Below are positions 18,894 to 56,580 of a DNA stretch of 64,000 bases, in pieces. The DNA lies in contig NZ_AUWQ01000019.1 of assembly GCF_000455205.1 (NCBI RefSeq), forward strand, positions 1 to 64,000, written 5' to 3'. The notes beneath the pieces were generated by a model that saw only the letters and a list, made by a program, of their open reading frames with translations, made no database searches and was not told where the DNA came from. The stretch's first letter is position 1; every line of letters begins with the position of its first letter. Made by a program: the position numbers and the translations under genes. The stretch is from Mycobacterium sp. UM_CSW. Its GTDB lineage: Bacteria > Actinomycetota > Actinomycetes > Mycobacteriales > Mycobacteriaceae.

Positions 18894-18908
18894 TACCGGT
18901 AGCCGGTA
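18894..18908. promoter_or_regulatory. Putative regulon palindrome, 15 bp
   Basis: TACCGGTAGCCGGTA lies between the divergent sigma factor gene (start 18765, 129 bases) and the single-domain receiver gene (start about 19018, 110 bases). Both outer half-sites TACC and GGTA are intact. It is one of the recurrent TACC-GCTAGC-GGTA palindromes of this window and could control either gene. Confidence 0.6.
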
Positions 18909-19017
18909 GCAATTGGCCGACTCACGACGCCGTCCCGGCGAAACCTTCCCGAACCGCCATAGATTTCCTGCTAGCCTCCATGCGATCTGGCCGCGGCTAT
19001 CCCACACTGGACTGGTG

Positions 19018-19398
19018 GTGACTGCTGGCGCGCGAACGCGTTGCGTGATTGTCGATGACAATCGCGACTTCCTCGATGCCGCGACGCGGTTGCTCGAGCA
19101 CCAGGGAATCGACGTGGTCGCCGTGGCAAACTCCTCCGCGGAAGGGCTCAAATGTGTCGAGGACCTTCGGCCCGACGTGACGCTCGTCGATATCGATCTG
19201 GGCGAGGAGAGCGGTTTCGAGGTCGTCGAGCTACTGCACAGCAATGGGTTTGGCTTCGAGGTGCCGACCATCCTGATCTCCACACACGCCGAAGAGGATT
19301 TCTCTGAGCTGGTCGCGGCCAGTCCGGCCTTGGCTTTCATTCCCAAGGCGGCCCTGTCAGGTGCCGCGATCCGCGACGTCCTGGGGCTTGCCGGCTAG
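19018..19398 (+). CDS. Single-domain receiver protein
   Basis: A protein of about 126 residues with only a CheY-like receiver: acidic pair in VIVDDN, phospho-acceptor Asp in VTLVDIDLGEESG, Thr/Ser in LISTHA and Lys in FIPKAALS. No output domain follows. The GTG codons at 19015 or 19018 precede the first beta strand; the frame extending to 18913 covers the palindrome at 18894 and is unlikely to be translated. It may relay phosphate or act by protein contact, possibly with the divergent sigma factor. Confidence 0.8.
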   Translation: MTAGARTRCVIVDDNRDFLDAATRLLEHQGIDVVAVANSSAEGLKCVEDLRPDVTLVDIDLGEESGFEVVELLHSNGFGFEVPTILISTHAEEDFSELVAASPALAFIPKAALSGAAIRDVLGLAG

Positions 19399-19399
19399 T

Positions 19400-19416
19400 T
19401 ACCCGCTAGCGCGGTA
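19400..19416. promoter_or_regulatory. Putative regulon palindrome before htrA, 17 bp
   Basis: TACCCGCTAGCGCGGTA keeps the GCTAGC core with TACC and GGTA ends. It begins two bases after the receiver gene stop and lies 140 bases before the HtrA start at 19556, a spacing similar to several other copies. Confidence 0.6.
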
Positions 19417-19555
19417 GCGGAATGGACGGTGGCGGTAACGACAGCCGCGCTCTCAGCCGCGATCCTGGACATGAGCGGTTCCAGCGCGCACAGCGCCGAA
19501 CCGATGTCGTTGCGCCCCATGGCCTTCGACGTATTCGAGGTGAGGACAAGGACTC

Positions 19556-20749
19556 ATGTCTGTTGATGACGGCTGCTACTGCCTGTTGCCGCCGTCCGGC
19601 CGACACTCGTCGCACCGGGTGCCCCGGCGCCGGAAGCGGTTGGTGCGCGGCGGGTTGTTGCTGCTGCGTGGAGCGGAGGTCGCGTTGTTTGTCGCGACGA
19701 TCTTCGCCGCCGTCGCGTTGCTTGCCCACCCGCCCGCGGTCGGCAGGTCGTCAGTAGATTCCAGTTTCGCGTTGGCTTTGCCTAATTCCGGGCCTAATTC
19801 CGGCGCGTTCTCTGTCCAGGAGGTGGCCGCGAAGGTGTTGCCCAGCGTGGTGACGCTGAAATTCAATGACGGCAACCGCTCTCAGCTCGGTTCAGGCGTG
19901 ATCCTCACCGCCGACGGGCTGATCATGACCAATAACCACGTCGTGGCACCGATGAGCGGTGGCCGTCGGCCGCCGGCGGACACCGAGGTGACCCTCAGCG
20001 ACGGCCGCACCGCGGCGTTCGACCTGATCGCCACCGACCCGAGGAGCGACATTGCGATCGGGCGGGCTCGGGACGTGTCCGGCCTCACCCCGATCTCGGT
20101 CGGCTCGTCGGCGGAGCTGCGTGTCGGTCAGCCCGTCGCGGCGGTGGGGTCTCCACTGGGGCTGCGCGGCACCGTCACCGCGGGCATCGTCAGCGCGCTG
20201 AATCGGTTGGTAAGTCCCGCGATTGACCCGGGCGGGCCGCTGAGCGCGTATTACGCCATCCAAACCGACGCGGCGATCAATCCGGGTAATTCCGGTGGTG
20301 CACTCGTCGACATGAATGGCGCGCTGGTCGGCATCAACGCCGCCGAGGCGGTGCTGCCCGCCGCGGAGGGTGCGGGCAGCACAGCACACGGATCGATCGG
20401 TCTCAACTATGCGATTCCCGTCGACCACGCCGCACGCATCGCCGCCGAACTGGCCACGACCGGCCAGGCATCGCATGGCTGGCTGGGCGTGCAAGCCACC
20501 GGCGACGCCGGTGTCCTCGGCGCCAAGATCACCGGGGTGGACGCCGGAAGCCCCGGTGCGGCGGCCGGATTGACGGTCGGCGCTGTCGTCACCAAGGTCG
20601 ATGACCAGATCATCGACAGCGGAGCCACCTTGGTGGCGGCCGTGCAATCCAGGGAACCCGGGGCCTCGGTCGCGCTCGCGTTCGTGCACAGTTCGGGTCT
20701 GCCGATGACGGCGCGGGTCACCCTCGGCACCGACCAGGGTCGGCAGTAG
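19556..20749 (+). CDS. HtrA/DegP-type serine protease with PDZ domain
   Basis: A 397-residue protein. One membrane helix (about residues 38-57) is followed by a trypsin-like domain with the triad His in TNNHVV, Asp in SDIAIG and Ser in NPGNSGGAL. A C-terminal PDZ domain (from about residue 300) includes GWLGVQATGD and GSPGAAAGL. HtrA enzymes degrade misfolded proteins outside the membrane. It resembles mycobacterial PepD-class proteases but has a short N-terminus. Its place between regulators and a histidine kinase suggests a cell-envelope stress role. Confidence 0.9.
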   Translation: MSVDDGCYCLLPPSGRHSSHRVPRRRKRLVRGGLLLLRGAEVALFVATIFAAVALLAHPPAVGRSSVDSSFALALPNSGPNSGAFSVQEVAAKVLPSVVTLKFNDGNRSQLGSGVILTADGLIMTNNHVVAPMSGGRRPPADTEVTLSDGRTAAFDLIATDPRSDIAIGRARDVSGLTPISVGSSAELRVGQPVAAVGSPLGLRGTVTAGIVSALNRLVSPAIDPGGPLSAYYAIQTDAAINPGNSGGALVDMNGALVGINAAEAVLPAAEGAGSTAHGSIGLNYAIPVDHAARIAAELATTGQASHGWLGVQATGDAGVLGAKITGVDAGSPGAAAGLTVGAVVTKVDDQIIDSGATLVAAVQSREPGASVALAFVHSSGLPMTARVTLGTDQGRQ

Positions 20750-20787
20750 CGAGCTGCATCGAGACTGTGAACTGACGCGCTGGCCGT

Positions 20788-22338
20788 TCAGACCGGCACG
20801 CAAGGGATTTCGGCCGCGAGCGTAGTGCCCTCGCTGTGGCCGCTGGCGACATCCAACCGACCGCCCAGCGCCTCCGCCCGGTCCCTGAGCCCGATCAGCC
20901 CGGATCCCCGCGGATCGGCGCCACCGATGCCGTCGTCAGATATCCACAGGCGCACCCGCCCGTCATCGGCCTCCACGGCGACAATGACACGGGACGCGTG
21001 CGCGTGTTTGGCGGCGTTTGTGAGCGCCTCCGCGACAACGTAATACACCGCCACCTCGACGGTTTTGGGCAATCGCCGCGGGACGTCGACGCGCAGCTCG
21101 ACGGGCATGGCGAAACGGCGGCACAGGGCACGCAGCGCGGGGCCCAGGCCGGCATTGGACAGCACGGCCGGATGGATGCCGCGGGAGAGCTGACGTAGTT
21201 CCTCGCTCGCCGCCGCGACTTCGTCGGCGAGTTCGACGATCTCGTGGTGCAGCCGGCCGTCGGGGGGCAGGGAGGCCTGCAGGGCCTGAAGGCGCAGCCG
21301 CAACGTGACGAGGCGCTGCTGCGCACCGTCGTGCAGGTTGCGTTCGATGCGACGCCTGGCCTCGTCACCGGCGGCGACGATGCGGGCCCGTGAAGCCATC
21401 AGCTCATCGCGCGCCTGTGCATTGGCGATCGCGGTCGCGACCAGCTCGGCGAAATCCGCCAGCTGCTCCTCGGTATGGGGCGGGTGCGGGTCGGGTCCCG
21501 AGGAGGCGATGACAGCCGCGCCCCAGAGCCGGCCGTCCACCTCGATGGGGGCGCCCACCGCCGAACGAATGCCCACGCCGCGGACCACGGCGGCGATCGG
21601 GCCGGCCGCATGCTCGTGGCTGTCCATCCGGGCGGTCGTGCCGCTCTGAAACACCATCGCCGCGACGTTGTCGCCGTCGAGCGGGAACACCCCGCCGACC
21701 GGGATCTTGTCCAAATGGGCCTTGTCGTGGGCGGCGACCAGCTCACACGAGCCGTTCCCCAAGTAGCGGACCAACACGCAGTTCTGCACCCGCAACGCGC
21801 GGGCGACCTCTTCGGCGACCGCGGTGAAGACCTCGGCCGGCGAAACACCGCGGGCGACGAGCGTCGCCACCCGGCGCAGGGACGTCTGGCGTTGCGCCAA
21901 TTGGCTGACCTGATTCGCCGCCCGTCGGGTTTCCGCCGTGCGTAGCCGGGCCCGGCCCGCCAGCACATTCGTCAGGATGCCGAGGGGCAGAAAAACCGCG
22001 AGCGGGAGAAGCTGCGCCGGGTGCGACGGCAGCGCGCCGAGGCCGGCGTCGAGGTGGATCTGCAGGTATACCACCGCGCTGACCAGCGTCGTCAACACCG
22101 CCAGACCGATGTTCCAGAACGACGAGATGACCAGGACGCCAAAGAGATACAGCGCGCCCAAGGTGCTGTGGGGTGCAACCGCGGAAAGCAGCCGGACCAT
22201 GATGGTTTCGGCGACGATCAAGGTGGCGGCAACGATTATCCCGAGCCATGGTGGACTACTCGGCGCCACCGACGACCGCCCGTGGCGGCGTTTGGCTCCG
22301 GGCCGGAAGGGAATCGTCGACCATTCGTTGGATGTCAT
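20788..22338 (-). CDS. GAF-domain sensor histidine kinase
   Basis: The N-terminus has membrane helices of the DUF4118 type (about residues 30-120). A GAF domain follows (RRVATLVARGVSPAEVFTAVAEE onward), then a HisKA_3 dimerisation region with the phospho-acceptor His in RNLHDGAQQRL, then an ATPase with ALTNAAKHA and SDDGIGG. HisKA_3 kinases pair with NarL/LuxR regulators such as that at 17.5 kb. The ATG at 22338 is chosen; 22398 is possible. A perfect regulon palindrome lies upstream at 22585, suggesting autoregulation. Confidence 0.88.
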   Translation of the reverse strand: MTSNEWSTIPFRPGAKRRHGRSSVAPSSPPWLGIIVAATLIVAETIMVRLLSAVAPHSTLGALYLFGVLVISSFWNIGLAVLTTLVSAVVYLQIHLDAGLGALPSHPAQLLPLAVFLPLGILTNVLAGRARLRTAETRRAANQVSQLAQRQTSLRRVATLVARGVSPAEVFTAVAEEVARALRVQNCVLVRYLGNGSCELVAAHDKAHLDKIPVGGVFPLDGDNVAAMVFQSGTTARMDSHEHAAGPIAAVVRGVGIRSAVGAPIEVDGRLWGAAVIASSGPDPHPPHTEEQLADFAELVATAIANAQARDELMASRARIVAAGDEARRRIERNLHDGAQQRLVTLRLRLQALQASLPPDGRLHHEIVELADEVAAASEELRQLSRGIHPAVLSNAGLGPALRALCRRFAMPVELRVDVPRRLPKTVEVAVYYVVAEALTNAAKHAHASRVIVAVEADDGRVRLWISDDGIGGADPRGSGLIGLRDRAEALGGRLDVASGHSEGTTLAAEIPCVPV

Positions 22339-22584
22339 CGCACGCACGGCTCGATCGGTAGTGCGTCCAGCCGACGGCGCCGGCGCACAGGCGATCACGG
22401 CTTCTCTGGCTTACGCGTGAACTGGGCGACGGTGCTGCCGTGTTGCGGTGACTGGCGCGATTCCACAACAAAACTCCATCCCGCCGACTTCGGCAGTGGC
22501 GGCGCTTGATTGTTTCGGGGGGCGCCTCAATCCAGTGTCGCCAAGGGTCAGCCGCTTCACATCGCTGCTGGCTTCAACCGCGCA

Positions 22585-22600
22585 TACCGGCTAGCGGGTA
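22585..22600. promoter_or_regulatory. Putative regulon palindrome, 16 bp
   Basis: TACCGGCTAGCGGGTA is a 7-2-7 inverted repeat with a single mismatched pair. An identical copy occurs at 56035. It lies 247 bases before the histidine kinase start at 22338 and just downstream of the AhpD-like gene, so it most likely serves the kinase gene. Confidence 0.68.
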
Positions 22601-22632
22601 GGGCGTCCGAACCACCGCCGCACGCCGAGCGC

Positions 22633-23226
22633 TTAGCCGGGCGCGGGTATCTCGAAGGCGTTGAGGATCGCGCACACGGTGTGGTAGATGCCGGTCAGGA
22701 CGGCGGCCTCCATCACCCCTGCCGGGCCAAGCGTCGCCTCCGCCGCACGATATAGCGTGTCGTCGAGGCGGTGCTCGACCGACAGTGCGCGGGCGACAAG
22801 GTGGGCAACGGCCTCGTCCTTGGTCAGATCGTCCGGAAGTCCGCCGTCGGCCAGTGTGCGCACCGCCTTATCGGGGAGCCCGGCCTGCCCGGCGACCGCG
22901 CAATGCGCATACAGCTCATAGGGGGCCCGCCATACCGCGCCGACCGACAGGATGATGACCTCCCTGCAGCGTTTGCTCAGCGAGGTGTTCGTCTGCTCGG
23001 TCACCGCGAGTTGCACGAAGGCTGACGAGATGGCCGGGGTCAGCAGCGCTGGGTTGAAGGGACCGATCAGCCGGCCCGCATCGGTGCGCGCCCGGAACTT
23101 TGCGGCCTCCGCCCATGGCACCGCAACATTCGTGAGCCAGTCGAAGAGCTCCCGCTGGGCCGGATCGAGCGCCGCACGCTCGTACAGCCGAAGACGACCG
23201 CCCAGCCCGCCGCCATCAACCGCCAT
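22633..23226 (-). CDS. Carboxymuconolactone decarboxylase (AhpD-like) family protein
   Basis: A 197-residue all-helical protein. Its core SKRCREVIILSVGAVWRAPYELYAHCAVAG matches the CMD/AhpD fold, where the glutamate/histidine region lies in a helix. The CxxC peroxidatic pair of true AhpD is missing: only one Cys precedes AVAG. It is therefore closer to PcaC-like or uncharacterised members. The ATG at 23226 is preferred over 23289. A palindrome at 23303 lies 77 bases upstream. Confidence 0.78.
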   Translation of the reverse strand: MAVDGGGLGGRLRLYERAALDPAQRELFDWLTNVAVPWAEAAKFRARTDAGRLIGPFNPALLTPAISSAFVQLAVTEQTNTSLSKRCREVIILSVGAVWRAPYELYAHCAVAGQAGLPDKAVRTLADGGLPDDLTKDEAVAHLVARALSVEHRLDDTLYRAAEATLGPAGVMEAAVLTGIYHTVCAILNAFEIPAPG

Positions 23227-23302
23227 GAGTCCTCCTACGTTTGGGCCTGGCCTGTCACGAACCACCTGCCTTAAGCATGCCGCCATCAAACCCTGATGTC
23301 GT

Positions 23303-23317
23303 TACCGCTAACCGGAA
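23303..23317. promoter_or_regulatory. Putative regulon palindrome (variant)
   Basis: TACCGCTAACCGGAA aligns with the 15-bp members TACCGGTAGCCGGTA and TACCGCTGGCTGGTA. It is 77 bases upstream of the AhpD-like gene start. Its right end is GGAA, not GGTA. Confidence 0.45.
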
Positions 23318-23408
23318 TCGACCCGCCAGGACAGCCCATCTCGCAATGAACCACGCTGCGCCGCAGCGACGGTCGCAAAGGAGCGGCTGGCGAGCCGGTC
23401 AAAGTAAT

Positions 23409-23423
23409 TACAGCTAGCCAGAA
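23409..23423. promoter_or_regulatory. Putative regulon palindrome before PE gene (variant)
   Basis: TACAGCTAGCCAGAA keeps the GCTAGC core and is 134 bases before the PE start, a spacing like that of the strongest sites, but its outer half-sites are degenerate. It is the weakest member counted. Confidence 0.35.
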
Positions 23424-23556
23424 GTCAAAGGGGACGCTAGCGCGGACGACAGCTGCGCCGGCCTCGGCAATGCTACGAGTTGAGCTTGGCTGCCGAGATG
23501 CTCGCATGTCCCGTGCCAGTGAACCAAGTCACCAAATCCGGATCGGGAGAACAAAA

Positions 23557-23856
23557 ATGTCGTTCGTCACCACACGGCCCGAAGCGCTGACCGCCACCGC
23601 GGGACAGCTGGCGGCAATCGGGTCGGCGATGACTGCTTCGAATTCTGCTGTGGCACAATCCGTAACCGGTCTGGTTCCGGCTGCCGCCGACGAGGTGTCG
23701 GCACTGACCGCGGCCGCGTTCACCGCGCACGGCGTTTTGTATAAGGAGATCGGCGCGCAGGCCGTGGCCATGCATCAACTGTTCGTGGCCACCTTGCAGA
23801 ACTCCGCCGGCTCCTATGCAGCCACCGACGCCGCCAATGCGGCCAGCGCCCGCTGA
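23557..23856 (+). CDS. PE family protein
   Basis: A 99-residue protein that is essentially a bare PE domain: MSFVTTRPEALTATAGQLAAIGSAM, with the helical hairpin expected to pair with a PPE partner. The start ATG 23557 is preceded by GGGAGA and matches the usual PE N-terminus; an in-frame upstream extension does not. PE proteins are exported by ESX (type VII) systems as PE-PPE dimers. The PPE gene follows 15 bases later, so the pair is very probably co-expressed. Confidence 0.93.
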   Translation: MSFVTTRPEALTATAGQLAAIGSAMTASNSAVAQSVTGLVPAAADEVSALTAAAFTAHGVLYKEIGAQAVAMHQLFVATLQNSAGSYAATDAANAASAR

Positions 23857-23871
23857 GAGCCGGTCGGACAC

Positions 23872-25002: not shown

Positions 25003-25124
25003 CGCGACAGCACGCCCGCGCCAAGCGCCTCCGACGACGTTGGGCCACCGGCTATTTCGGCGCGTCCGCGCTGCGACCAGTACCCATGGCGGCGGCCGTC
25101 ACACGTGCGGACTGGGCGCGCCGG

Positions 25125-25229
25125 TCATCGCCGCGGGAATCCCGTGTGCCGCTCGACGACAGTGCGACTGTCATGCAGGGCCCACGCGAGGGTGCTCAAT
25201 AACAGCATTGCCAGCAATACGGTCAACAT
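25125..25229 (-). CDS. Possible 34-residue membrane peptide
   Basis: The sequence starts MLTVLLAMLLLSTLAWAL, one strong membrane helix, and ends with a basic tail RHTGFPRR. AGGGCAGG precedes the ATG at 25229. Similar one-helix small proteins are common in mycobacteria, but no family is assigned. It lies antisense to no known gene, between the PPE gene and a P450 remnant. The longer frame to 25526 runs over the P450 remnant and is not supported. Confidence 0.4.
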   Translation of the reverse strand: MLTVLLAMLLLSTLAWALHDSRTVVERHTGFPRR

Positions 25230-25299
25230 CGGCGATACCTGCCCTTCTCGGTCGTTCCCGTCCAGACCGGCCGCCGCGTCCGACGAGACTGTCCCACAA

Positions 25300-30976: not shown

Positions 30977-30993
30977 TACCCTGCTAGCGGGTA
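30977..30993. promoter_or_regulatory. Putative regulon palindrome, 17 bp
   Basis: TACCCTGCTAGCGGGTA has one extra base in the left arm compared with the 16-bp copies, with the GCTAGC core and GGGTA intact. It lies 134 bases upstream of the extradiol dioxygenase start. It could also affect the divergent mmpS gene 244 bases away. Confidence 0.6.
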
Positions 30994-31180
30994 TCCGCGG
31001 TTCTGACTATTCGTCACTGTTGTGTTGGATGACAACGCAACTCGGTCAACGACGAGCCGATGCCCCCCAAGAATCGCCGTTAGATTGCGCAACTAATTCA
31101 TATAGCGCTCTTCGCTTTTTAGCGTTTACTATGCACACACAACCGAATCTGACGGTCCAGGAAAGGTCGAAAGACCCGCC

Positions 31181-36656: not shown

Positions 36657-39600
36657 TCATTCGGCTCGGCTGGTGTGGTGCGGGATGGTGATGTCGAGGG
36701 CGGTGCCCCCTCCCAGGGGGCTGGCCACCCGCATCCAGCCGCCGAGCACCTCGATGCGGTCCTTGAGGCCGATCAGACCGGAGCCCTTACCCGAGTCCGC
36801 CCCGCCGACGCCGTCGTCCGAGATGAGCAGGGTGAGGTTCATGTCGTCGGCGTGCGCCCGCACCCTCACCTCGGATGCCTGAGCGTGTTTGGCCGCGTTG
36901 GTCAACGCCTCCGCGACCACGTAGTACGCGGCGACCTCAACGGAGTCGGGCAATCGGTGGTCAATCGCGACATCGAGGTCGACGGGCACCGACGAGCGAC
37001 GGGCCAGCGTCTTGAGCGCCGCAGACAGACCGCCGGTCGACAGCACCGCCGGATGGATGCCCCGGGAAATCTCCTGCAGCTCGGTGAATACGTCGGTCAG
37101 GCCCGAAACCGCCTCGGAAAGCTCGTGTTTCAGGGCATCGGACTCGGGTGGCACCGACTCCTGCGCGAGACGGAGTTTCAGGCCCAGGGAGACGATCCGT
37201 TGCTGGGCTCCGTCGTGGATGTCTCGTTCCAGGCGGCGACGGGCATCGTCGGCGGCCGCCACGATCCGGGCCCGCGACGCGATCAGCTCCTCGCGGGTGG
37301 TCGCGGCCGCGATCGCCGTCGCCACCAGTTCGGCGAATTCGACGATGCGCGCTTCGGTGTCGGGCGGCAACGGATCTTGGTCGGTGGTGGCAACCACGGC
37401 CAACCCCCACAGCCGCTCGTCCACCACGATCGGCGCCCCGACCCGCGACCGAACACCCAACTCCCGAACACGCTCGGCGATGGGGCCGTCAGCGCCCTCC
37501 CAGCTGTCCATCCGCGCCGCGCGCCGCGTATGCAACACCCTCGCGGCGACGTTGTCGCCCTCGGTGCCCAGGCGCTCCCCCACCTCCAAATGCGCCACTC
37601 CGGGCGCCGCATGGGAGGCCACGACGAAGATCGCCGCGCCGTCGTCCTCGAAACGGAGCACCTCGGCGCTCCCCACATCCAGGCAGTCGGCCATCTCCTC
37701 GGCCACCGCCGAGAACACCTCCGCCGGACTGACCCCTTGTGCGACCAGCGTCGCCACGCGCCGCAGCGCCGTCTGCTGCCTGGCCAGCACGCTCAGGTTG
37801 TCGGCGAGTTCGCGCAGGCTATCGCGGCTGGCCTGCAACTCAGATCTGGTGGCGGCGTTGGCAATTGAGGTGCCCACCAGATCCGCGAAGTCCGCCATGC
37901 GCGACTCGGTGTCGGGCGGCAAGGGTCCCGTTCGCGACGCCACGCCGACCGCACCCCAGACATGGCCACCGACGACGACGGGGACCGCGACCATGGATTG
38001 GATGCCGAGATCACGGATGAAGGCAGCCGTCGAGCCAGCCGCGCCGTCGTGGGTGTCCATGCGGGCGGGCCTCCCGGTGCGCAGCACCATCGGCGCGACG
38101 TGGTCGCCGCCCAGCGAGAAACGCTGGCCGGCCGTCGGCGCGCTCATGTCCAACTCCTCCACGCGCCCGACTGCCTCCACGACGATGTCGTCACCGTCGA
38201 AACGAATCACGGTCGTGTTGTAGACGTCCAGGCATTCCCCTAGCTGCTCGGCGACCGCGTTGAAGACCTCGGCGGGCGCCGCCTCGCGGGCAACGAGTTC
38301 GGCCACCAGGCGCAGCGCCGTCTGCTGGCCAGCGAGGTCGCGCAGGCTGTCACGGCTGGCTTGAAGTTCAACCCTGGTGGCGGCGTTAGCGATTGACGTG
38401 GCCACCAGATCCGCGAAATCGGAGATGCGCGCCTCGGTGTCGGGCGGCAGTGGGTCGTTGCGCGACGCCGCGGCGAGCACGCCCCACACGTGCGCCCCGA
38501 CGGTGATGGGCACGCCTACCATGCACCGCACCCCGGCATCGCGAATGCGTGCGGCCGTCACGCCCGCCGCATGGTCGTGGCTGTCAATTCGGGCGGGGCG
38601 ACCGGTGCGCCGGATGATTGGCCCGATGTGGTCGCCGGTCAGGGGGAGCCGCTCGCCGATCGCCGGCGGGTTCGGCAGTTCCGGCTCGGCGCGGCCAAGG
38701 GCCTCGATGACGATGGCATCGTCATCGAACCGGCCGACGGTCGTGTTGTGGACGTCCAGGCAGCCTGCGGTTTCCTCGGCCACCGCCCGGAATACCTGGC
38801 GAGGCGGCGCCTCGCGCGCCACCAGTTCGGCCACCCGCCGCAGCGCCGTCTGGTGTCGGGCGAGGTCGCGCAAACTGTCGCGGCTCGCCCGAAGCTGTTC
38901 CCTGGTGGCCGCGTTGGCGATCGCGGTGGCGACCAGGTCGGCGAAATCGGCCATGCGGGCTTCGGTCTCAGGAGGCATGGGCGTGATCCGCGACGCGACC
39001 GCAAGCACTCCCCACAGATCTGAGCCGACAACGATGGGGACACCGACGACTGATTGCAGCCCGCCCGCACGGATGCGTGCGGCCCACGCGCCCGAAGCGT
39101 TCTCGTAGTCATCAATTCGCGCCGGTCGACCGTCTCGCCGAACCATTAGGGCGATGTTGTCCCCCTCCATCACGAACCGTTCCCCGACCACCGGAAGGTT
39201 CGGCATCGCGGAATCGGCCCGCGCGACGGCCTCCACGATCGTCGCGTCGTCGTCGTAGCGGACCACGGTCGCATTCTGGACGTCGAGGATGCTGGCGATT
39301 TCCTCCGCGACCGCGTGGAACACTGCTGCCGGCTGCGCCTCACGCGCGACCAGTTCCGCCACCCGGCGCAGCGCCGATTGGCGTCGCGCGAGCTCGCGCA
39401 GGCTGCTGCGGCTGGAATTCAGCTGTTCACGAGCCGCCGCATTGGCGATCGCGGTCGCAACCAGATCGGCGAAGTCGGCGATGCCCACCTCGGTGTCGGC
39501 CGGCAGGGGATCGCCCCGCGAGGCCACGGCGGCCACCCCCCACAGTTGTTCGCCGACCATGATCGGGACGCCGACCATCGATCGGATGCCCATCTCCCTC

Positions 39601-40622
39601 AGGCGTGCCGCCGAAACGCCCACCGCGTGCTCGTGGTTGTCGACCCGCGCGGGCCGTCCCGTGCGCCGAACGATCGCAGCGACGTCGTCGCCGCCGAGTG
39701 GAAACCGCTCGCCCACCGCCGGCGGATTCGGCAGGTCGATCTCCGGACGCCCAAGCGCCGCGGTGACGATTTCATCGCCTTCGTAACGACCCACCGTCGC
39801 GTTGTAGACGTCCAGAATATTGGCCATCTCCTCGGCCACGGCGTTGAACACGTCGGCAGGCTCGGCATCGCGGGCGACCAGTTCGGCCACCCGACGCAGC
39901 GCCGTCTGATGCCGGGCGAGCTGACGCAGGCGGTCCCGGCTCGCCCGCAGCCGCTCCTGGCTGGTCTCGAGCATGGTCCGGATTTCGCGGAGTTGCTCTT
40001 CTTCCGCGCGTTGCCCGGTGACATCGCGGCCGACGGCATAAAACAACCCGTCGTGCGGCGTGACGCTCCATTCGATCCACCGCGAAGAACCATCACGTCT
40101 AATCGCCCGGTTTTCGAAGCGAACCGGCCCACGGCCCTCGGTCAGATCTTTTATCGGCTCACGGAGCCGATCCATGTCTTCGGGCGGTACCAATTCGAAT
40201 GGGGCGGCCATCAAATCGTCCATCGTGTAACCCAGCGTCTTTTCGAAGGCCGGATTGACCTTCAGCAATTGGCCCTGATCGGAAATGACCATGAGGTCGG
40301 AAGTAAGTTCGAAGAACTGTTCCAATCCGTGCGGGCTGTCGTCCGATCCGTTGCTGACCTTCCCGCGGTGGCTGGCGGCGGCGAAGACGGCGGCCACAAA
40401 GTTGCCGACGAGGGCCACGCCCAACAGAACCGCGTAGATCGTCCCCGTCGGGTCGTCCGGTGCCACTTGCTCGAGGAGAACGACCAGCACTGCCGCGACG
40501 ACCGAGAACCCCGCCGCGGCGGTGACCGCAAACCCGGGCGCCGGAACTGCCCGCAGCCGAACCGACGCTTTTGGGGGCGCAACCGTTGACGTGCGGGCGG
40601 CGCGCCGACGTCTGGGCGACAT
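36657..40622 (-). CDS. Giant sensor histidine kinase with PAS and five tandem GAF domains
   Basis: A 1321-residue kinase. Two membrane helices near the N-terminus are followed by a PAS domain (DLMVISDQGQLLKVNPAFEKTLGY), five GAF domains, a HisKA_3 region with the phospho-acceptor His in RDIHDGAQQR, and an ATPase with ALTNAAKHA and SDDGVGG. The GAF units start at similar RRVAELVARxAxP segments spaced exactly 528 bases three times and then 549. The last GAF-kinase part resembles the 20.8-kb kinase. ATG at 40622 is chosen. No regulator adjoins. Confidence 0.9.
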   Translation of the reverse strand: MSPRRRRAARTSTVAPPKASVRLRAVPAPGFAVTAAAGFSVVAAVLVVLLEQVAPDDPTGTIYAVLLGVALVGNFVAAVFAAASHRGKVSNGSDDSPHGLEQFFELTSDLMVISDQGQLLKVNPAFEKTLGYTMDDLMAAPFELVPPEDMDRLREPIKDLTEGRGPVRFENRAIRRDGSSRWIEWSVTPHDGLFYAVGRDVTGQRAEEEQLREIRTMLETSQERLRASRDRLRQLARHQTALRRVAELVARDAEPADVFNAVAEEMANILDVYNATVGRYEGDEIVTAALGRPEIDLPNPPAVGERFPLGGDDVAAIVRRTGRPARVDNHEHAVGVSAARLREMGIRSMVGVPIMVGEQLWGVAAVASRGDPLPADTEVGIADFADLVATAIANAAAREQLNSSRSSLRELARRQSALRRVAELVAREAQPAAVFHAVAEEIASILDVQNATVVRYDDDATIVEAVARADSAMPNLPVVGERFVMEGDNIALMVRRDGRPARIDDYENASGAWAARIRAGGLQSVVGVPIVVGSDLWGVLAVASRITPMPPETEARMADFADLVATAIANAATREQLRASRDSLRDLARHQTALRRVAELVAREAPPRQVFRAVAEETAGCLDVHNTTVGRFDDDAIVIEALGRAEPELPNPPAIGERLPLTGDHIGPIIRRTGRPARIDSHDHAAGVTAARIRDAGVRCMVGVPITVGAHVWGVLAAASRNDPLPPDTEARISDFADLVATSIANAATRVELQASRDSLRDLAGQQTALRLVAELVAREAAPAEVFNAVAEQLGECLDVYNTTVIRFDGDDIVVEAVGRVEELDMSAPTAGQRFSLGGDHVAPMVLRTGRPARMDTHDGAAGSTAAFIRDLGIQSMVAVPVVVGGHVWGAVGVASRTGPLPPDTESRMADFADLVGTSIANAATRSELQASRDSLRELADNLSVLARQQTALRRVATLVAQGVSPAEVFSAVAEEMADCLDVGSAEVLRFEDDGAAIFVVASHAAPGVAHLEVGERLGTEGDNVAARVLHTRRAARMDSWEGADGPIAERVRELGVRSRVGAPIVVDERLWGLAVVATTDQDPLPPDTEARIVEFAELVATAIAAATTREELIASRARIVAAADDARRRLERDIHDGAQQRIVSLGLKLRLAQESVPPESDALKHELSEAVSGLTDVFTELQEISRGIHPAVLSTGGLSAALKTLARRSSVPVDLDVAIDHRLPDSVEVAAYYVVAEALTNAAKHAQASEVRVRAHADDMNLTLLISDDGVGGADSGKGSGLIGLKDRIEVLGGWMRVASPLGGGTALDITIPHHTSRAE

Positions 40623-42643: not shown

Positions 42644-43020
42644 GTTCCCTTGCGTCCTTTCATGTTTCGACACGCTTGCCACAAGTGTGACGATGATCGA
42701 CGCCGAAGCGCTGCACGCCAGCTACCAATCCGCGTACCGGCCAGCACCAACACACTCCCGAAATGACTCTTCGGGCACGCGTCCAAACGCGTTGTAAACC
42801 GGCGCAATACTGACGGTCCGTCAGAAAGTCACCGCATCGGCCGACATTACCGCTGGCTGGTATATCCATTTGCCGGTGGCGGTAACGACATGTCCTCGCG
42901 ACGGCCGCATCCTGAGATCAACCCCGCGACAGCAAAGGCTGCGCGTAATCGCTTGCAGAAAAAGAAGTTACAAGCCAAGCAGCGGTGCGGAGCCGCTCGG
43001 AGACAATTGGAGGAACAACC
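42644..43020. other. Divergent intergenic region before aldehyde dehydrogenase
   Basis: This 377-base region separates the small secreted protein from the aldehyde dehydrogenase gene. It contains the palindrome at 42848-42862 and a nearby imperfect copy TGCCGGTGGCGGTA at 42871-42884, giving a double site. No ORF is supported. Confidence 0.5.
42848..42862. promoter_or_regulatory. Putative regulon palindrome, 15 bp
   Basis: TACCGCTGGCTGGTA has both outer ends intact. It lies 159 bases before the aldehyde dehydrogenase start, and a partial second copy follows nine bases later at 42871. It would drive the dehydrogenase-decarboxylase pair. Confidence 0.55.
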
Positions 43021-44409: not shown

Positions 44410-44448
44410 TCCAATTCCCCAGTGGCTCAACGTAAAAGGAAGGCAATC

Positions 44449-49576: not shown

Positions 49577-49972
49577 CGCGCCACCTCGGGCCGGGCGGCG
49601 GTCGCATAGTCCACGGCGCTTCGGTCAGAGCATGTCGTCGAATCCCCTGGGACATGCGAATGACGGTCACAAATGATCTCGGCCGACGTGCTTCGCCGGT
49701 CGAATTGCCCTGTCAGGTCGAGCATTTCCCACCACTTCGCCGTACGCGCTTCACTACCCACACCCTCAAGGGTGAATGTCACTCACCGGGAAGTCATCGG
49801 CGCTGGCGCCTATCAATGACTGTCGGGCAACCTCAGTGCCGCATACTCGCCAGCTGCAATCGTCTGCCGCTTACTTGCGTGCGTCGACCTGAACAACGGG
49901 CGTGTTTTGACGCCGAAAGGACAGATCTGCGCTCAGAATCGATGCCGCTTCAGGCTCGACGCGAACAGCCCC
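49577..49972. other. Intergenic region downstream of MmpL, no gene seen
   Basis: This 396-base stretch contains a palindrome-like GGTGAATGTCACTCACC at 49771-49787 and a weak match to the regulon motif (TACTCGCCAGCTGCAA, 49844-49859). No coding frame with mycobacterial codon bias is found. Its role is unclear. Confidence 0.4.
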
Positions 49973-52213: not shown

Positions 52214-53322
52214 AATCGAAGCACCGCACCTTCAATGGTCAGGCCGGGGCCGAACGCCAGGAGCACTCCGTGCTCGCCGCGGCGAGGCTTGTCGACGCGC
52301 AGGATGTTCTCCAGCACGAGCAGCACGGTGGCCGAGGCACAGTTGCCGGCGTTGGCCAGGACATCCCAGCTGGCGCGCAGCTGCTCCGGCTGCAAGCCGA
52401 GTTGCTTACCCAGCTTGCGGACGATCTTCGGGCCGCCCGGGTGAATACCCCAATGGGTGACGTCGTCCTTCGAAAGGCCAAGCGGGGTCAGCAGTTTGGC
52501 GAGGAAGCCCTCGATGTTCTCCTCGAGGACCGCCGGCACGCCGGCGGCCAGGGTCATCCAGAACGACCGGTTGCCGATGTTCAGGCTCATCATGGTGTGC
52601 TGGTCGTATAACTGCTCGGTGTGGGTGCGCAGGAACTGCACCCCGGCGCCGTCAGGGGCCGAGCCCATCAGCATCGACACGCTGGCATCGCCGAACAGCG
52701 CCTGCGTGATGAGCGCTTCCACCGGGTCCTCCCCGGGCATCAAACTTTCCCGGATGTGCGCCGAGCTCAATTCGGTGTTGTTGCAGATCACCAGTTCGCC
52801 GGGCCGGGCGGCGACGCTGTCCATCGCGACCTTGATGACGTTGAGCGCCGCGTAGCAACCCATGTGACCGATGAAGGTGCGACGCAGATCCGACCGCAAA
52901 CCAAGCTCTTTCGCGAGCATGAGGTCGGGTCCGGGGTTGACGTACCCGGTCGAGCAGGCCATCACGAAACTGCCGATTCGCTGCGTGTCGAAGTCGCCGA
53001 TGGCTTCCTTGAGGGAACGGCCGGCGACATCGATGACGGCCTCGCTGTGGGCCGCCATCCGGTCGCCCGTGAGCAGGCCGGCGGCCTCCACGAGATTGTC
53101 GGGGTGCCACATGATGTGGCGCTTCCGGACCTTGGTCGATTCGACGATTCGCTTCACGAAACGCACCGAGGACACCCGCTCGAAGAACTGTGTGGTCTCT
53201 TCCTGAGTCACCTCGAACGGCGGGTGGGCCGATGCGATGCCCAGCAGGGTGGGACGTTGGCGCACGGCGCCGTTCGTCACGTGCGACGGCGCCAGCACGT
53301 CGAAGGGATCTGCAAGATACAT
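52210..53322 (-). CDS. Type III polyketide synthase
   Basis: A 370-residue chalcone-synthase-like enzyme with the Cys-His-Asn triad C156 (GHMGCYAAL), H294 (GIHPGGPK) and N327 (ANAGNCASA), and the loop FGPGLTIEG at the C-terminus. It extends an acyl starter with malonyl-CoA to make an alkylpyrone or alkylresorcinol-type product. M. tuberculosis Pks10/11/18 are the known relatives. A free ACP and FAAL upstream suggest that the starter is delivered as acyl-ACP. A signature in the cluster for tailoring enzymes was not seen. Confidence 0.92.
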   Translation of the reverse strand: MYLADPFDVLAPSHVTNGAVRQRPTLLGIASAHPPFEVTQEETTQFFERVSSVRFVKRIVESTKVRKRHIMWHPDNLVEAAGLLTGDRMAAHSEAVIDVAGRSLKEAIGDFDTQRIGSFVMACSTGYVNPGPDLMLAKELGLRSDLRRTFIGHMGCYAALNVIKVAMDSVAARPGELVICNNTELSSAHIRESLMPGEDPVEALITQALFGDASVSMLMGSAPDGAGVQFLRTHTEQLYDQHTMMSLNIGNRSFWMTLAAGVPAVLEENIEGFLAKLLTPLGLSKDDVTHWGIHPGGPKIVRKLGKQLGLQPEQLRASWDVLANAGNCASATVLLVLENILRVDKPRRGEHGVLLAFGPGLTIEGAVLRF

Positions 53323-53343
53323 TGGCTGACTTCCTTACTCGCT

Positions 53344-55113
53344 CTACCCGACGAATCGGTTCTTCTTGCGTCGTGCCAGCGCTGCACGAGCGTGGAGGAC
53401 TTCCCCATTGGCCGCCTGCACCAACAACCGTGCCGCGGTGACCTTTTTGGGTGCGGACAACCGACCCGTCTGCCATTGCGTGAGCGCCTCGCGTCGGCGA
53501 AGCTTGCCGCTGCTCGTGCGCGGCAACGTGCCGGGCTCGAGTAGCTCCACGTGCGCCGGCAGGATGCCCGTGTGTTGCTGCACGCGCACCGCGACGTCGT
53601 GGGCCAGGCCGGGCCCGGCGTCGGGAGCCGTCTCGACGAGCAGCGCGAGCGCCTCGTCTTCCTCGCCCGGCGGCACGAATCCCACCGCGACGGCGCATCC
53701 GGTGCGCACGCCCGGCAGCCCGTCCAAAGCGGCCTCGAACTCCTCGGGGGCGTGATTGGCGCCGCGCACGATGACGATGTCCTTTTGGCGTCCGCACACG
53801 TAGAGCTCGCCCTCGTGGACGAAGCCTCGGTCGCCCGTGTGCAGCCAGCCGTCGTGCAGAGCCTGGTCGGTGAGGTCGGGGCGACCGAAGTAGCCGGCCA
53901 TGATGCTGGGGCCCGCGACGAAGATGTGCCCGGCCCGGCCCGGCGGCAGCGCCTTCCCGTGGTCGTCGCGGATCTCGACCGCCATGCCGGCCAGCGGACG
54001 CCCCACGCTGACAATCTCTTTGCCGCCCGGTTCGACGACGCCTTCCGCCGCCAGCCTGTCACCATCCACGCCGAGGGCCTTGAAGGAGGTATCCGCCGGC
54101 TTGAAGGTGACGGCCAGGGATGCCTCCGCCATGCCGTAGCACGGCGTGAACGAGGACGCCCGGAATCCCCAGCGCCCGAAGCGCTCGCTGAACCGCCGCT
54201 GCGCTTCGGCGCTGACCGCCTCGGCGCCGTTGAGGCAGATGTTCCACGAGGACAGGTCCACGCCGTCGAGCTCGTCATCGCGGATGCGCTTGAGGCACAG
54301 CCCGAAAGCGAAACTCGGCGCCGCCGTGATGGTGCCCCGGTGTCGCGAGACGGCTCGCAGCCAGGCCCCGGGCACCGCGACGAACAGCTCGGGTGGCAAC
54401 AGGACCAGCTTCCCCGGAACGTAGAACGCGCTCAGCAGGTTTCCGATGAGGCCCATGTCGTGATAGAGGGGCAGCCAGGTGACGCCAACGGGATACGGGG
54501 CGCCGTCCGTGGTGATGTACTGCTCGAGGCTCGCCAGGTTGGACAGCAGGTTCGCGTGGGTCAGCGCCACCGGTTTGGGGTCGTTGGTGGTGCCCGACGA
54601 GAACTGGATGACCGCGATGTCGTCGGAACGGACTTCGACGGCCTCCGCTGCCGGGCCCGTCAGGCTCGACGCCGTGACGCATCCCAGCGGCGGGGCCGTG
54701 CTGGCGACCGACACCCCAAGGAAGCGCCGGATGCGCTCGTCCGTCACGACCATGGCGGCGTCCACCGCGCTGAGCATGGCAGTCGTCCTACGGTGGTACT
54801 CGTCGAGCTTGCCCAACCGCAGCGGCGGATAGAGCGGGACGGGGATCGCGCCGGCGCACAGCACGCCGAAGAAGCATTGCACGAATTCCGGCGAGGTCGG
54901 CAGCACCAGCGCGACGCGGTCGCCCTTGCGAATTCCGCGGCGGATCAGGTCACCCGCCACCGCCAGCGCCTCCTCGCGGATCCGGGCGAAAGGCACGTCG
55001 TGGTCTTGCTCCTTCTTGTCCACGAAAACCAGTCCGAGCTCCGATTGCGCGGCCCCATCGAGCATTTCGATCAGTGACGCATGCTTGGGCACGATCGCCG
55101 GCGCCCCTTTCAC
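53344..55113 (-). CDS. Fatty acyl-AMP ligase (FAAL)
   Basis: A 589-residue ANL enzyme. The P-loop is QFSSGTTNDPKPVALTH and the FAAL-like TWLPLYHDMGLIGN and PCYGMAEASLAVTF follow; the C-terminal Lys motif is RTSSGKLRRRE. FAALs transfer acyl-AMP to an acyl carrier protein and not to CoA, and an ACP gene overlaps this one upstream by four bases (stop of ACP at 55110). It would load the ACP that feeds the type III PKS. Family calls rest on motif similarity. Confidence 0.85.
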   Translation of the reverse strand: MKGAPAIVPKHASLIEMLDGAAQSELGLVFVDKKEQDHDVPFARIREEALAVAGDLIRRGIRKGDRVALVLPTSPEFVQCFFGVLCAGAIPVPLYPPLRLGKLDEYHRRTTAMLSAVDAAMVVTDERIRRFLGVSVASTAPPLGCVTASSLTGPAAEAVEVRSDDIAVIQFSSGTTNDPKPVALTHANLLSNLASLEQYITTDGAPYPVGVTWLPLYHDMGLIGNLLSAFYVPGKLVLLPPELFVAVPGAWLRAVSRHRGTITAAPSFAFGLCLKRIRDDELDGVDLSSWNICLNGAEAVSAEAQRRFSERFGRWGFRASSFTPCYGMAEASLAVTFKPADTSFKALGVDGDRLAAEGVVEPGGKEIVSVGRPLAGMAVEIRDDHGKALPPGRAGHIFVAGPSIMAGYFGRPDLTDQALHDGWLHTGDRGFVHEGELYVCGRQKDIVIVRGANHAPEEFEAALDGLPGVRTGCAVAVGFVPPGEEDEALALLVETAPDAGPGLAHDVAVRVQQHTGILPAHVELLEPGTLPRTSSGKLRRREALTQWQTGRLSAPKKVTAARLLVQAANGEVLHARAALARRKKNRFVG

Positions 55114-55376
55114 GGCAGCTCTCCCATGCGACCGACGACCAAGTTGGCCAGGTCGCCGACTGTGCGGAGATCGTCGGCGTCTTCCTCTTGCAATTCGATG
55201 TCGTAGTGCGCCTCGATCTTGAAGACGATCGACATGAACTTGAGGGAATCGAGGCCGATGTCGGCGAGGTTCGACTCCGCCGTCGGAGCGGCTTCATCGG
55301 CTTCCTTCTTGACGAAGTCGATGATCTCCTGCGTGATGATCTCGAGTATTTCGGAATCTTGTGCTGAGACGGTCAT
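55110..55376 (-). CDS. Acyl carrier protein
   Basis: An 88-residue ACP. The phosphopantetheine Ser is in DIGLDSLKFMS, and the helices flanking it, EIITQEIIDFVKKEADEAAPTAES and DDLRTVGDLANLVV, match the carrier fold. The ATG at 55376 is chosen; the longer frame to 55493 lacks ACP features. It is the first gene of the operon and probably carries the acyl starter between the FAAL and the type III PKS. Two palindromes upstream (55435, 55562) may control it. Confidence 0.87.
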   Translation of the reverse strand: MTVSAQDSEILEIITQEIIDFVKKEADEAAPTAESNLADIGLDSLKFMSIVFKIEAHYDIELQEEDADDLRTVGDLANLVVGRMGELP

Positions 55377-55434
55377 GCCCAGAAGTCTTGTCGGAGCGAC
55401 CTCAAAAAGCGTCCCCGCCAACACGACTCGTCTT

Positions 55435-55450
55435 TTCTGGTTAGCACCAA
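55435..55450. promoter_or_regulatory. Putative regulon palindrome (variant)
   Basis: TTCTGGTTAGCACCAA matches the other strand of the 56565 site at 11-12 of 16 positions. It is 59 bases before the ACP start, near where a promoter would lie. Confidence 0.4.
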
Positions 55451-55561
55451 TCCTCAAGTTAGCCGTCGCGGGGCCAAAGAAGTTGTGGTGCAACGTGCTA
55501 GGCCGCGTGTGGCAAGCGTGCCACCACCAATCCTTGATTACCGGCTGTGCGACTGACCGGA

Positions 55562-55577
55562 TTCCGGCCAGCTGGAA
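55562..55577. promoter_or_regulatory. Putative regulon palindrome (variant)
   Basis: TTCCGGCCAGCTGGAA is a nearly perfect inverted repeat with the same 16-base length and 7-2-7 shape. It lies 186 bases before the ACP start. Its ends are TTCC/GGAA, so it may belong to the family or be an independent site. Confidence 0.4.
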
Positions 55578-55597
55578 GACAGCTGACCGGCGCGCTT

Positions 55598-55747
55598 TCA
55601 GGAAGCTTTGAGGCCGTACTTCGGGCCGAGCGTGGTGACGGCATTTTTGAGCTGTTCGCCGAGTTCGTCGAGGCGGTCCGCTTGTGAGGCGTCGACGGCC
55701 GCGCTGACCGCCGCGATCAGACTGCGGTCCGGGGCGAGCAGCCGCAC
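55598..55747 (-). CDS. Possible small protein, 49 residues
   Basis: A GTG-start frame with a helical, acidic sequence ending GEQLKNAVTTLGPKYGLKAS and an internal DASQADRLDELGEQL. The codon choice looks mycobacterial, but no family is recognised. It lies 22 bases after the 46-residue frame upstream on the same strand and could be the frame-shifted continuation of it. Confidence 0.3.
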   Translation of the reverse strand: MRLLAPDRSLIAAVSAAVDASQADRLDELGEQLKNAVTTLGPKYGLKAS

Positions 55748-55769
55748 CGGGCGCTGGTGCGCCCAGGAA

Positions 55770-55910
55770 TCACTTCCCGGCCCGCGACATCAAGTTCCGC
55801 AGCCCGCTGGGCGCATCGGTCTCCGCCGTGCCGGGATGAGACACCATCACGTAGCCGGCGTAACCCCACATCATCGGTATTGCGGCCAGTACGCCATACA
55901 TCGCTGTCAT
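55770..55910 (-). CDS. Possible 46-residue membrane peptide
   Basis: The protein starts MTAMYGVLAAIPMMWGYAGYVMV, a Met-rich helix, and ends PSGLRNLMSRAGK. GGAGGT lies just before the ATG at 55910 on the coding strand. A perfect regulon palindrome (56035) is 125 bases upstream, the same spacing as at the dioxygenase operon. It was missed by a length cut-off because it is so short. Expression is plausible but not shown. Confidence 0.5.
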   Translation of the reverse strand: MTAMYGVLAAIPMMWGYAGYVMVSHPGTAETDAPSGLRNLMSRAGK

Positions 55911-56033
55911 GACGTCACCTCCTGAAGTACCAGGGCCTCAACGCGTTGTTGATGTGTTAAGCCTTGCCCCGCGGGGCGCTGACGTCGCCGTGGCTGGCAC
56001 CCATCAGGGGGTCCCACCAGTCGGGATCTTCGC

Positions 56034-56498
56034 CTACCGGCTAGCGGGTATGCGGGGTGCGGCCGGTTCCTCAGCGGGCACGCTGACGTCCGGGAAGGCA
56101 TTGATGAGGGCGCGGGCCCGTGCGTGATTCCAACGCCGGATGGTACCGGCGGCATGAGCCGCGACCAGGCCGCAGACGAGGCCCAGGTTGGCGAGCAGGG
56201 CCACGCTCAGCAGAAAAGCGATCAGGCGGGCACCGGCGTTACGGGCATCCACGTCCTCGAAGAGGATGACCGAAATGGCCTCGGCGGCCAGCAGGGTTTG
56301 GACGACGACGAATACCGCCGCCGGCAGGATCGCGCGCTTGACTGCATCGGCCGCTTCGGTGGCCGGAATGGAAGCCGCCTTCCGGGCGATGATCGGCACG
56401 TCCGTGTACCCCTTAACTGCGTGCTGGGTCCGTCGTTGACCAGTCTGACGAAACACCGGCAGACCCGCATTGCCGCTAGCGGCCGGATCGTGATTCAT
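56034..56498 (-). CDS. Two-helix membrane protein, unknown
   Basis: A 154-residue protein with two membrane helices (VFVVVQTLLAAEAISVILF and LIAFLLSVALLANLGLVCGLVAA) separated by a short acidic loop. The basic N- and C-terminal tails are likely cytosolic. The last codons (IPASR and stop) are formed by the palindrome at 56035, so that site overlaps the coding end. ATG 56498 is chosen; other starts cannot be excluded. No family is recognised. Confidence 0.55.
   Translation of the reverse strand: MNHDPAASGNAGLPVFRQTGQRRTQHAVKGYTDVPIIARKAASIPATEAADAVKRAILPAAVFVVVQTLLAAEAISVILFEDVDARNAGARLIAFLLSVALLANLGLVCGLVAAHAAGTIRRWNHARARALINAFPDVSVPAEEPAAPRIPASR
56035..56050. promoter_or_regulatory. Putative regulon palindrome, 16 bp, identical to 22585 site
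   Basis: TACCGGCTAGCGGGTA is the same 16-mer as the site before the GAF kinase gene 33.4 kb away. It overlaps the last codons of the two-helix membrane protein gene and lies 125 bases before the 46-residue ORF, so it probably controls the latter. Confidence 0.65.
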
Positions 56499-56564
56499 GC
56501 TGGCGGGGGCCGATGATCCCGAGACCAGCCAAATCAGCTGCGGCACAACTTGATCGGATGAGCC

Positions 56565-56580
56565 TTCCGGCTAACCAGTA
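56565..56580. promoter_or_regulatory. Putative regulon palindrome (variant)
   Basis: TTCCGGCTAACCAGTA matches the 16-bp consensus at 12 positions. It lies between the divergent two-helix protein (67 bases) and the lipase (111 bases) and could serve both. Confidence 0.45.

Follow-up and report, generated by a model that had tools for sequence, protein, structure and literature searches.

The question raised by the stretch of Mycobacterium sp. UM_CSW DNA analysed here is whether a palindrome that recurs ahead of several of its genes is the operator of a response regulator encoded among them. The stretch, hereafter the window, comprises bases 1-64000 of the 83378-nt contig C19 in a genome of 6.39 Mb; the nearest named relative that we found is Mycobacterium sp. 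E796 (locus L036), whose sensor kinase is 96% identical. The candidate owner is the NarL/LuxR-type protein encoded at 17462..18154 on the + strand, in which Pfam recognises a receiver domain (Response_reg, 6.9e-18) followed by a GerE helix-turn-helix domain (1.4e-14). From the motif, its clustering, its linkage to the regulator, its conservation and its spacing, all of which were computed directly, we consider it very probable that the palindrome is the predicted operator of this regulator, in an undescribed and autoregulated actinobacterial two-component regulon whose targets would here be clustered in 38 kb.

The original prediction had listed six TACC..GGTA palindromes, and all six lie where it placed them. 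The window contains no other TACC-N5-11-GGTA, and 100 shuffles gave a mean of 0.75 such sites and a maximum of 4. The sites at 22585 and 56035 are, as claimed, an identical 16-mer found twice, 33 kb apart. The distance between TACC and GGTA is 7, 9, 8, 9, 7 and 8 bp in the six sites, and four of them have a GCTAGC core. A palindromic weight matrix was built from 43 training loci, among which neither the window nor the seven loci closest to it (L036 and L141-L146) were counted, and it gave the half-site T(T/A)CCNGCT. The 7-2-7 inverted repeat proposed earlier was recovered, whereas the strict TACC/GGTA ends were not: the element is better described as the 18-mer ATTCCNGC-TA-GCNGGAAT, which also has TACC and TTGC variants. 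With this model, derived from other loci, the weaker sites noted at 23303, 23409, 55435, 55562 and 56565 scored 18.3, 18.4, 11.0, 18.0 and 13.1 bits.

The distinctive feature of the window is the clustering of good matches within 38 kb. Ten sites of at least 12 bits were found in its 64 kb, compared with two in 360 kb sampled elsewhere in the same genome, a rate that predicts 0.36 for the window, and at 15 bits or more the counts were eight and none. Both exact matches to TACCNGCTAGCNNGTA, together with five further places with two mismatches, are on contig C19, and in the remainder of that contig (C19:64001-83378) the best site is no higher than 10.7 bits. The sites had been said to be nearly all intergenic; by a simple in-house gene caller this is so for nine of the ten that reach 12 bits, the tenth (56042) overlapping the stop codon of a small predicted open reading frame (ORF), in a window of which 84% is called coding. 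Of the 84 sites that reach 12 bits in the 43 training loci, 71 are intergenic, though 86% of the DNA is called coding.

Good sites are thus rare in the 360 kb taken elsewhere, and they are also kept in relatives; the outcomes named in advance as refuting the prediction were looked for on these two points and did not appear. The site columns of L141, L142, L143 and L144 are 90, 82, 90 and 94% identical to the window (16 site columns in the case of L144), compared with 75, 74, 70 and 62% for the other aligned intergenic columns. In L143 a PE gene directly follows the receiver gene, and the PE and ring-cleavage dioxygenase genes each retain a site despite the altered gene order.

The link to the regulator comes from other genomes. 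Among 65 orthologous sequences, D68 and the helix-turn-helix segment EGTVEKHVRS of the regulator are nearly invariant, and D23 (93%), D24, D68, S99 and K122 are conserved; in its own genome a single match is obtained at E<=1e-60. Relatives in Streptomyces clavuligerus, Nonomuraea and Rhodococcus qingshengii are 75.5%, 71.6% and 65.3% identical. In S. clavuligerus and R. qingshengii a gene for a stand-alone receiver (REC-only) protein and a histidine kinase gene adjoin the regulator gene, as they do in the window, and the palindrome is likewise found at the receiver gene. Palindromes of the same form also adjoin orthologues of the GAF-domain kinase in Rhodococcus, in M. moriokaense and in many Mycobacterium genomes. 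When we examined orthologue loci, sites of at least 12 bits were present in 34 of 34 from Mycobacterium, which belong to the training set, and in 18 of 19 from outside the genus (18 from other families and a further one from the same family but a different genus), which do not; the REC-only gene accompanies the regulator in each of these 19 and a kinase of the family in 17. In comparison, 20 control loci of paralogues with 52-62% identity contained four such sites, one of them intergenic. In one other actinobacterial family, f21 (loci L225-L234), a site lies between the regulator and receiver genes in 10 of 10 loci.

Presence and absence were compared over 248 genomes of the genus, of which 101 were called regulator-positive at 63% identity or more (one by a partial match), and each reversed pattern served as control. 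The strict pattern TNCCNGCTAGCNGGNA occurs in 60/101 positive and 12/147 other genomes (Fisher p 1.4e-18, an optimistic value since the genomes are related and their independence is overstated), its reversed control in 34/101 and 33/147 (p 0.06). Counting two genomes at 60-62% identity as positive changed little (61/103 and 11/145). In a sample of 296 genomes of the class the regulator, called at E<=1e-80, was found in 24, five in the genus and 19 outside it, so that outside Mycobacterium it is sporadic. A response regulator with 50% identity is also encoded by MT835671.1 (3121-3777; Bacteriophage sp., human faecal samples), which is possibly bacterial DNA.

Two kinds of predicted promoter can be made out among the sites. 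In the first (type I), a single palindrome precedes the receiver gene: a site of at least 9 bits is found there in 67 of 70 loci (window and near relatives included), two of the three exceptions having no receiver hit and one no site. For 18 of the 19 loci outside the genus, an in-frame start codon of the REC gene follows 42-43 bp after the centre of the site; a start is found at 42-44 bp in some Mycobacterium loci, and in others the only one lies some 20 nt farther downstream. Many loci have a hexamer NANNCT about 30 bp away from the centre, which would make such transcripts leaderless.

In the second kind (type II), a distal palindrome is followed by a half-site and -35 element at +20 and by a -10 at +53. 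Of 423 oriented sites, 45 have the second element, GYYAGCRGYRRYGACA with at least 12 of 16 matches, exactly at +20, while other positions from +9 to +57 mostly give 0-9. In 40 composite sites outside the window, in whose selection NANNCT played no part, this hexamer is at +53 (19 sites) or +54 (6) and nowhere else from +46 to +70, which places ACGACA and NANNCT 17 bp apart, as a -35 and a -10. Furthermore, the half-site GCYAGC and the type I palindrome are equally far from their respective -10 elements, which suggests that two regulator dimers would sit 23 bp apart at type II promoters. With models of the second element and the -10 made from 30 composite sites, near relatives excluded, five of the 30 oriented sites of the window carry the second element at 11.9-18.6 bits, when about 0.06 would be expected above 6 bits; all five have NANNCT at +53, and three of the five -10 scores exceed 3 bits. 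With at most one mismatch, the composite pattern has seven matches in the genome, four of them in the window. Its exact form occurs in 27/101 regulator-positive and 3/147 other genomes of the genus (p 3.5e-9), with 36 matches altogether, and its reversed control in 9/101 and 11/147, with 20. A similar composite match is seen in two genomes without the regulator (G029 C1:3608703 and G105 C1:2928864), possibly at an unrelated conserved locus.

Ownership by the 17462 regulator, which had been offered as a possibility, is therefore supported by linkage in orthologue loci, by presence and absence in 248 genomes, by 18 of the 19 non-genus loci and by the fixed promoter spacing. The predicted operator combines 7-2-7 geometry with linkage to this regulator, and the same comparative evidence favours its being a NarL-type operator.

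Several observations weigh against this reading. By itself, GCTAGC is not enriched in the window (nine copies, 6.3 expected, a count reached in 18 of 100 shuffles), and genome-wide the TACC..GGTA pattern, with 146 occurrences and 364 for its reversed control, is not over-represented; on these points the original argument was put too strongly. Likewise, TACCNGCTAGCNNGTA with at most two mismatches occurs 28 times in the genome, under the 54 of its control, and the composite pattern with at most two mismatches 68 times compared with 118, without genome-wide excess. Forty-one of the 101 regulator-positive genomes lack TNCCNGCTAGCNGGNA, the p values are optimistic as said above, locus L239 has the REC-only gene and no site, and outside the genus only 23 of 36 sites are intergenic by the gene caller, from which start codons were also taken. 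The conservation seen in L036 (96% of site columns, 94% of others) is uninformative, this locus being too close. As to the promoters, further peaks of the second element are found at +43 (14), +44 (22) and +57 (14), and the window's share of its signal is partly circular because the consensus was first read from sites of the window and L042. Type I flags fall on five of the 30 oriented sites of the window, with about 2.7 expected by chance, and the window taken alone does not establish type I; its assignment to the REC gene (18972 +) comes from the loci of relatives. The -10 scores of 18972, 23415 and 42854 are low (1.3, 1.3 and 2.7 bits), their hexamers fitting NANNCT nonetheless, and the sites 18900, 55569, 56042 and 56572 match neither promoter type.

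Could the palindrome have another origin? Another regulator, nearby or elsewhere (for example a TetR-type repressor), might own it and the response regulator be connected by neighbourhood only, since palindromes ending in TACC/GGTA suit other regulator families too. We judge this quite unlikely: motif and regulator co-occur over the 248 genomes, 18 of 19 non-genus loci have a site, and of the three proteins encoded there (regulator and REC-only protein in all, kinase in 17) the regulator alone is DNA-binding; the 7-2-7 geometry, moreover, suits NarL-type proteins. The outer letters also agree with a RicR/CsoR-type metal box, TACCC-N5-GGGTA, and a CsoR-like gene (59921-60280) and a P-type ATPase gene do lie at 59.9-63 kb. 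However, none of the six sites fits that box, their gaps being 7-9 bp with a GCTAGC core in four; the held-out model finds no site of at least 9 bits in 56.6-62.2 kb and none beside the CsoR-like gene; and the motif tracks the two-component regulator, CsoR/RicR genes not having been searched for in other genomes. A metal box is on these grounds extremely improbable. The copper-chaperone-like, CsoR-like and P-type ATPase genes at 59055-63332 make up a metal cluster of their own, in which the palindrome is absent.

A dispersed repeat, REP-like or left by a mobile element, would account for the identical 16-mers 33 kb apart, but the flanks that were compared have only promoter elements in common, and ahead of the same gene in genomes far apart the palindrome stands at an unchanged position, its distance to the -10 being fixed, so that we give this explanation hardly any credence. 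A different matter is whether the regulator, as owner of the palindrome, mainly represses at these sites instead of activating. A site at -42 overlaps the -35 region, and NarL-type proteins can repress; on the other side, type I promoters have no evident -35 box and a near-exact distance from site to -10, and type II palindromes are upstream of a -35-like element, as activation would have it. Neither feature is decisive, and repression as the main mode seems to us rather unlikely.

The predicted targets of the 17462-18154 regulator in the window begin beside its own gene. The stand-alone receiver protein (19015..19398, + strand), in which D14, D15, D59, S89 and K111 are conserved, has a type I palindrome at 18964..18981 (+; 15.3 bits), a -10 CACACT at 19003-19008 and a GTG start at 19015, 42 bp past the palindrome centre. 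Since this protein and the regulator both keep the phosphorylation residues, it can probably accept phosphate. A further palindrome (18892..18909; 17.5 bits), between the REC gene and an ECF sigma factor gene (18157..18765, - strand; SigH-like, below the model cut-off), matches neither promoter type; the idea that this site, at 18894, is the promoter of the sigma gene was dropped, and the most consistent target is the receiver gene rather than the sigma factor. No anti-sigma gene was seen among the Pfam-scanned neighbours of the sigma gene. In two other genomes sigma genes lie under type II sites (L223 123-752, L099 854-1420).

Type II promoters were recognised at five places, with palindromes centred at 19407 (+), 22592 (-), 23415 (+), 30985 (-) and 42854 (+). 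That of the HtrA-like serine protease (19556..20749, +) has its distal palindrome at 19399..19416 (+), its second element at 19428-19443 and its -10 GATCCT at 19461-19466; the palindrome, which is the site first listed at 19400, has a 1-base misfit and scores only 6.2 bits, and was retained because of these downstream elements. The promoter of the sensor kinase is at 22584..22601 (-; 19.2 bits), with the second element at 22572-22557 and the -10 GACACT at 22539-22534. PE/PPE genes follow the palindrome at 23407..23424 (+; 18.4 bits; second element 23436-23451, -10 AATGCT 23469-23474). The fourth promoter (30977..30994, -; 12.1 bits; second element 30965-30950, -10 CATGCT 30932-30927) precedes extradiol dioxygenase, FAA hydrolase and FAD monooxygenase genes (30843 to 27165), and the fifth (42846..42863, +; 22.4 bits; second element 42875-42890, -10 CATCCT 42908-42913) aldehyde dehydrogenase and thiamine pyrophosphate (TPP)-dependent decarboxylase genes (43021-46149).

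The other sites are less clearly assigned. A carboxymuconolactone-decarboxylase-like (AhpD-like) gene (22633-23226; Pfam CMD match below cut-off) is preceded by a palindrome at 23301..23318 (-; 18.3 bits; -10 CATGCT 23279-23274); this site, 23309 -, is called type I at 7.2 bits and is flagged in L036 and L141 too. Two palindromes stand before acyl carrier protein (ACP), AMP-ligase, type III polyketide synthase (PKS) and MMPL genes, one weaker and flagged type I (55434..55451, -; 11.0 bits) and one whose promoter type was not recognised (55561..55578; 18.0 bits). The genes concerned (49973-55376), which encode a type III PKS (DpgA-like, below cut-off), an AMP ligase, an ACP and an MMPL transporter, are possibly a small polyketide or lipid cluster. 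Beyond them are the palindrome that shares its 16-mer with 22585 (56034..56051; 20.7 bits; promoter not recognised), a weak one at 56469..56486 (-; 11.4 bits; -10 CAGACT 56447-56442), tentatively assigned as a possible type I site (56477 -) to a small ORF, and one at 56564..56581 (13.1 bits) whose target is uncertain. Thus, among the targets first proposed, HtrA, the kinase, PE/PPE, the aromatic genes and aldehyde dehydrogenase/decarboxylase stand as predicted type II targets, the receiver gene stands as predicted type I, the AhpD-like gene is probable as type I, and the sigma factor, the lipase and the type III PKS genes are weak.

The sensor kinase itself (20788..22398, -; start uncertain, 22398 or 22221) has the order DUF4118-GAF-HisKA_3-HATPase, with a DUF4118 part and one GAF domain. 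A second, large kinase (36657..40490, -) has PAS, five GAF and HisKA_3 domains, and its approximately 375 C-terminal residues are 57% identical to the first; from this likeness it may be a second sensor feeding the 17462 regulator. In some relatives a second such kinase is found on the same contig (for example G058 C108 and G240 C25).

How does this system compare with known ones? We class it as a predicted NarL-type two-component regulon. NarL/FixJ operators, as known for E. coli NarL, are inverted TACYYMT heptamers in a 7-2-7 arrangement. The present regulator has the same receiver and GerE domains, and the heptamers of its predicted operator are inverted with 2 bp between them, the half-site T(A/T)CC.. 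resembling TACYYMT; it differs by the half-site T(T/A)CCNGC, the TA centre, the GAF kinase, the stand-alone receiver partner and the target genes. The conserved receiver partner and the composite promoter set it apart from known NarL-type systems. The DosS/DosT-DosR (DevR) system, which governs dormancy in mycobacteria, likewise has GAF/HisKA_3 kinases, possibly two for one NarL-type regulator here as well. DevR promoters have a primary site and a weaker secondary site beside the -35, which the two-dimer scheme of type II resembles. However, the window motif is unlike the GGGACT-type DevR box, and orthology of the regulator to DevR was rejected on phmmer scores (DevR, 3c3w, 81.2; VraR 81.1; NarL 75.4 bits). 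Of the 20788 kinase, the ATPase part alone matched DevS and DosT structures.

BphS-BphT/BpdS-BpdT of Rhodococcus also pairs a kinase with a NarL-type regulator, governing actinobacterial aromatic metabolism, and excerpts of one article report a 24-bp promoter element for it (PMC11881993). We rejected this identity: the proteins of a presumed BphST-like pair in L301 (AAA-ATPase kinase and regulator) are 32.5% and 31.6% identical, and in L301 each of the four sites that reach 9 bits is inside an annotated gene, none being intergenic. BphST is set apart by this homology and these site positions, the letters of the published 24-bp element not being compared. MnoS-MnoR of M. smegmatis, according to excerpts of its description, is likewise a two-component system of a mycobacterium, and its palindromic target precedes an alcohol dehydrogenase gene (PMC11303327); it differs in that this target is single-copy in its genome, and its motif might still coincide with the present one. 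The best-scoring named NCBIfam models, MadR/MadS and MctR/MctS, were rejected, as their scores are far below cut-off (regulator 120 of 300 bits for MadR and 108 of 300 for MctR, kinase 107 of 700 for MctS), and among the named NCBIfam two-component models listed for the regulator and the kinases none reaches its cut-off. As far as their excerpts go, neither motif nor module is described in the articles on RsfSR, a CHASE3 kinase with a PP2C partner (PMC10950880), PdtaSR (PMC11537054), BphST (PMC11881993, PMC10282184), TpdR (PMC6099782) and MnoSR (PMC11303327), nor in a review of S. coelicolor two-component systems (PMC9739842). In the open-access literature, covered by titles and abstract starts with most subscription papers outside the search, we recognised no description of the motif or the module. 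The comparative evidence and this result support the earlier view that the regulon is undescribed.

The mechanism that we infer for binding, activation, phosphotransfer, start points, the role of the receiver and the signal would be the following. The GAF kinase (20788-22398), and perhaps also the multi-GAF kinase (36657-40490), would phosphorylate the regulator, a dimer of which would bind ATTCCNGC-TA-GCNGGAAT. At type I promoters (the REC gene and probably the AhpD-like gene) the dimer would sit about 42 bp upstream of the start point, replacing a -35 box. At type II promoters a dimer on the distal palindrome (about -65) would help a second one onto a degenerate half-site (about -42), which adjoins an ACGACA -35 placed 17 bp upstream of the NANNCT -10. 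The regulator would so activate its own kinase and its REC partner, the latter probably draining or buffering phosphate as feedback, and in this species the regulon would have gathered stress and aromatic/aldehyde metabolism genes over 38 kb.

At other loci, with protein cluster representatives scanned, the targets called under type I or II sites, those of the module aside, include catalase (2), molybdenum aldehyde/xanthine oxidoreductase (5), TPP decarboxylases (2), a bicupin, a catechol dioxygenase, cutinase (2), sigma factor (2) and an unknown protein of 49-54 aa (8), as well as HD-domain, lactonase-like, MIP, PrsW, aldo/keto reductase, alpha/beta hydrolase and RibD_C proteins. This theme suggests oxidative, aldehyde or aromatic stress. 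The 49-54 aa protein is called under a type II site in eight of the ten f21 loci; no Pfam family was found in the two scanned, and the four printed sequences have LSTxDLxxMLNVPLxAxPxVVxExGRLL in common.

More tentatively, and with odds somewhat below even, we suggest a widespread, undescribed actinobacterial module of three proteins (GAF kinase, NarL-type regulator, stand-alone receiver). Its receiver promoter would be deeply conserved and possibly leaderless, with the operator 42-44 bp upstream, and how long the response lasts would be set by the receiver, acting as an obligatory, co-induced phosphate sink or branch. The Mycobacterium lineage studied here would have recruited the operator, with a second half-site at a fixed 23 bp, into a 38-kb stress, aromatic, aldehyde and type III polyketide region.

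With these results an unnamed two-component system gains a defined candidate operator, a promoter grammar and a list of candidate targets, and its regulon becomes predictable in carriers (101 of 248 genus genomes at 63% identity or more, 24 of 296 class genomes). Through it the part played by a conserved stand-alone receiver next to a kinase and its regulator can also be tested. In this mycobacterium one predicted switch would connect HtrA, PE/PPE and ring-cleavage genes, perhaps together with a type III polyketide cluster.

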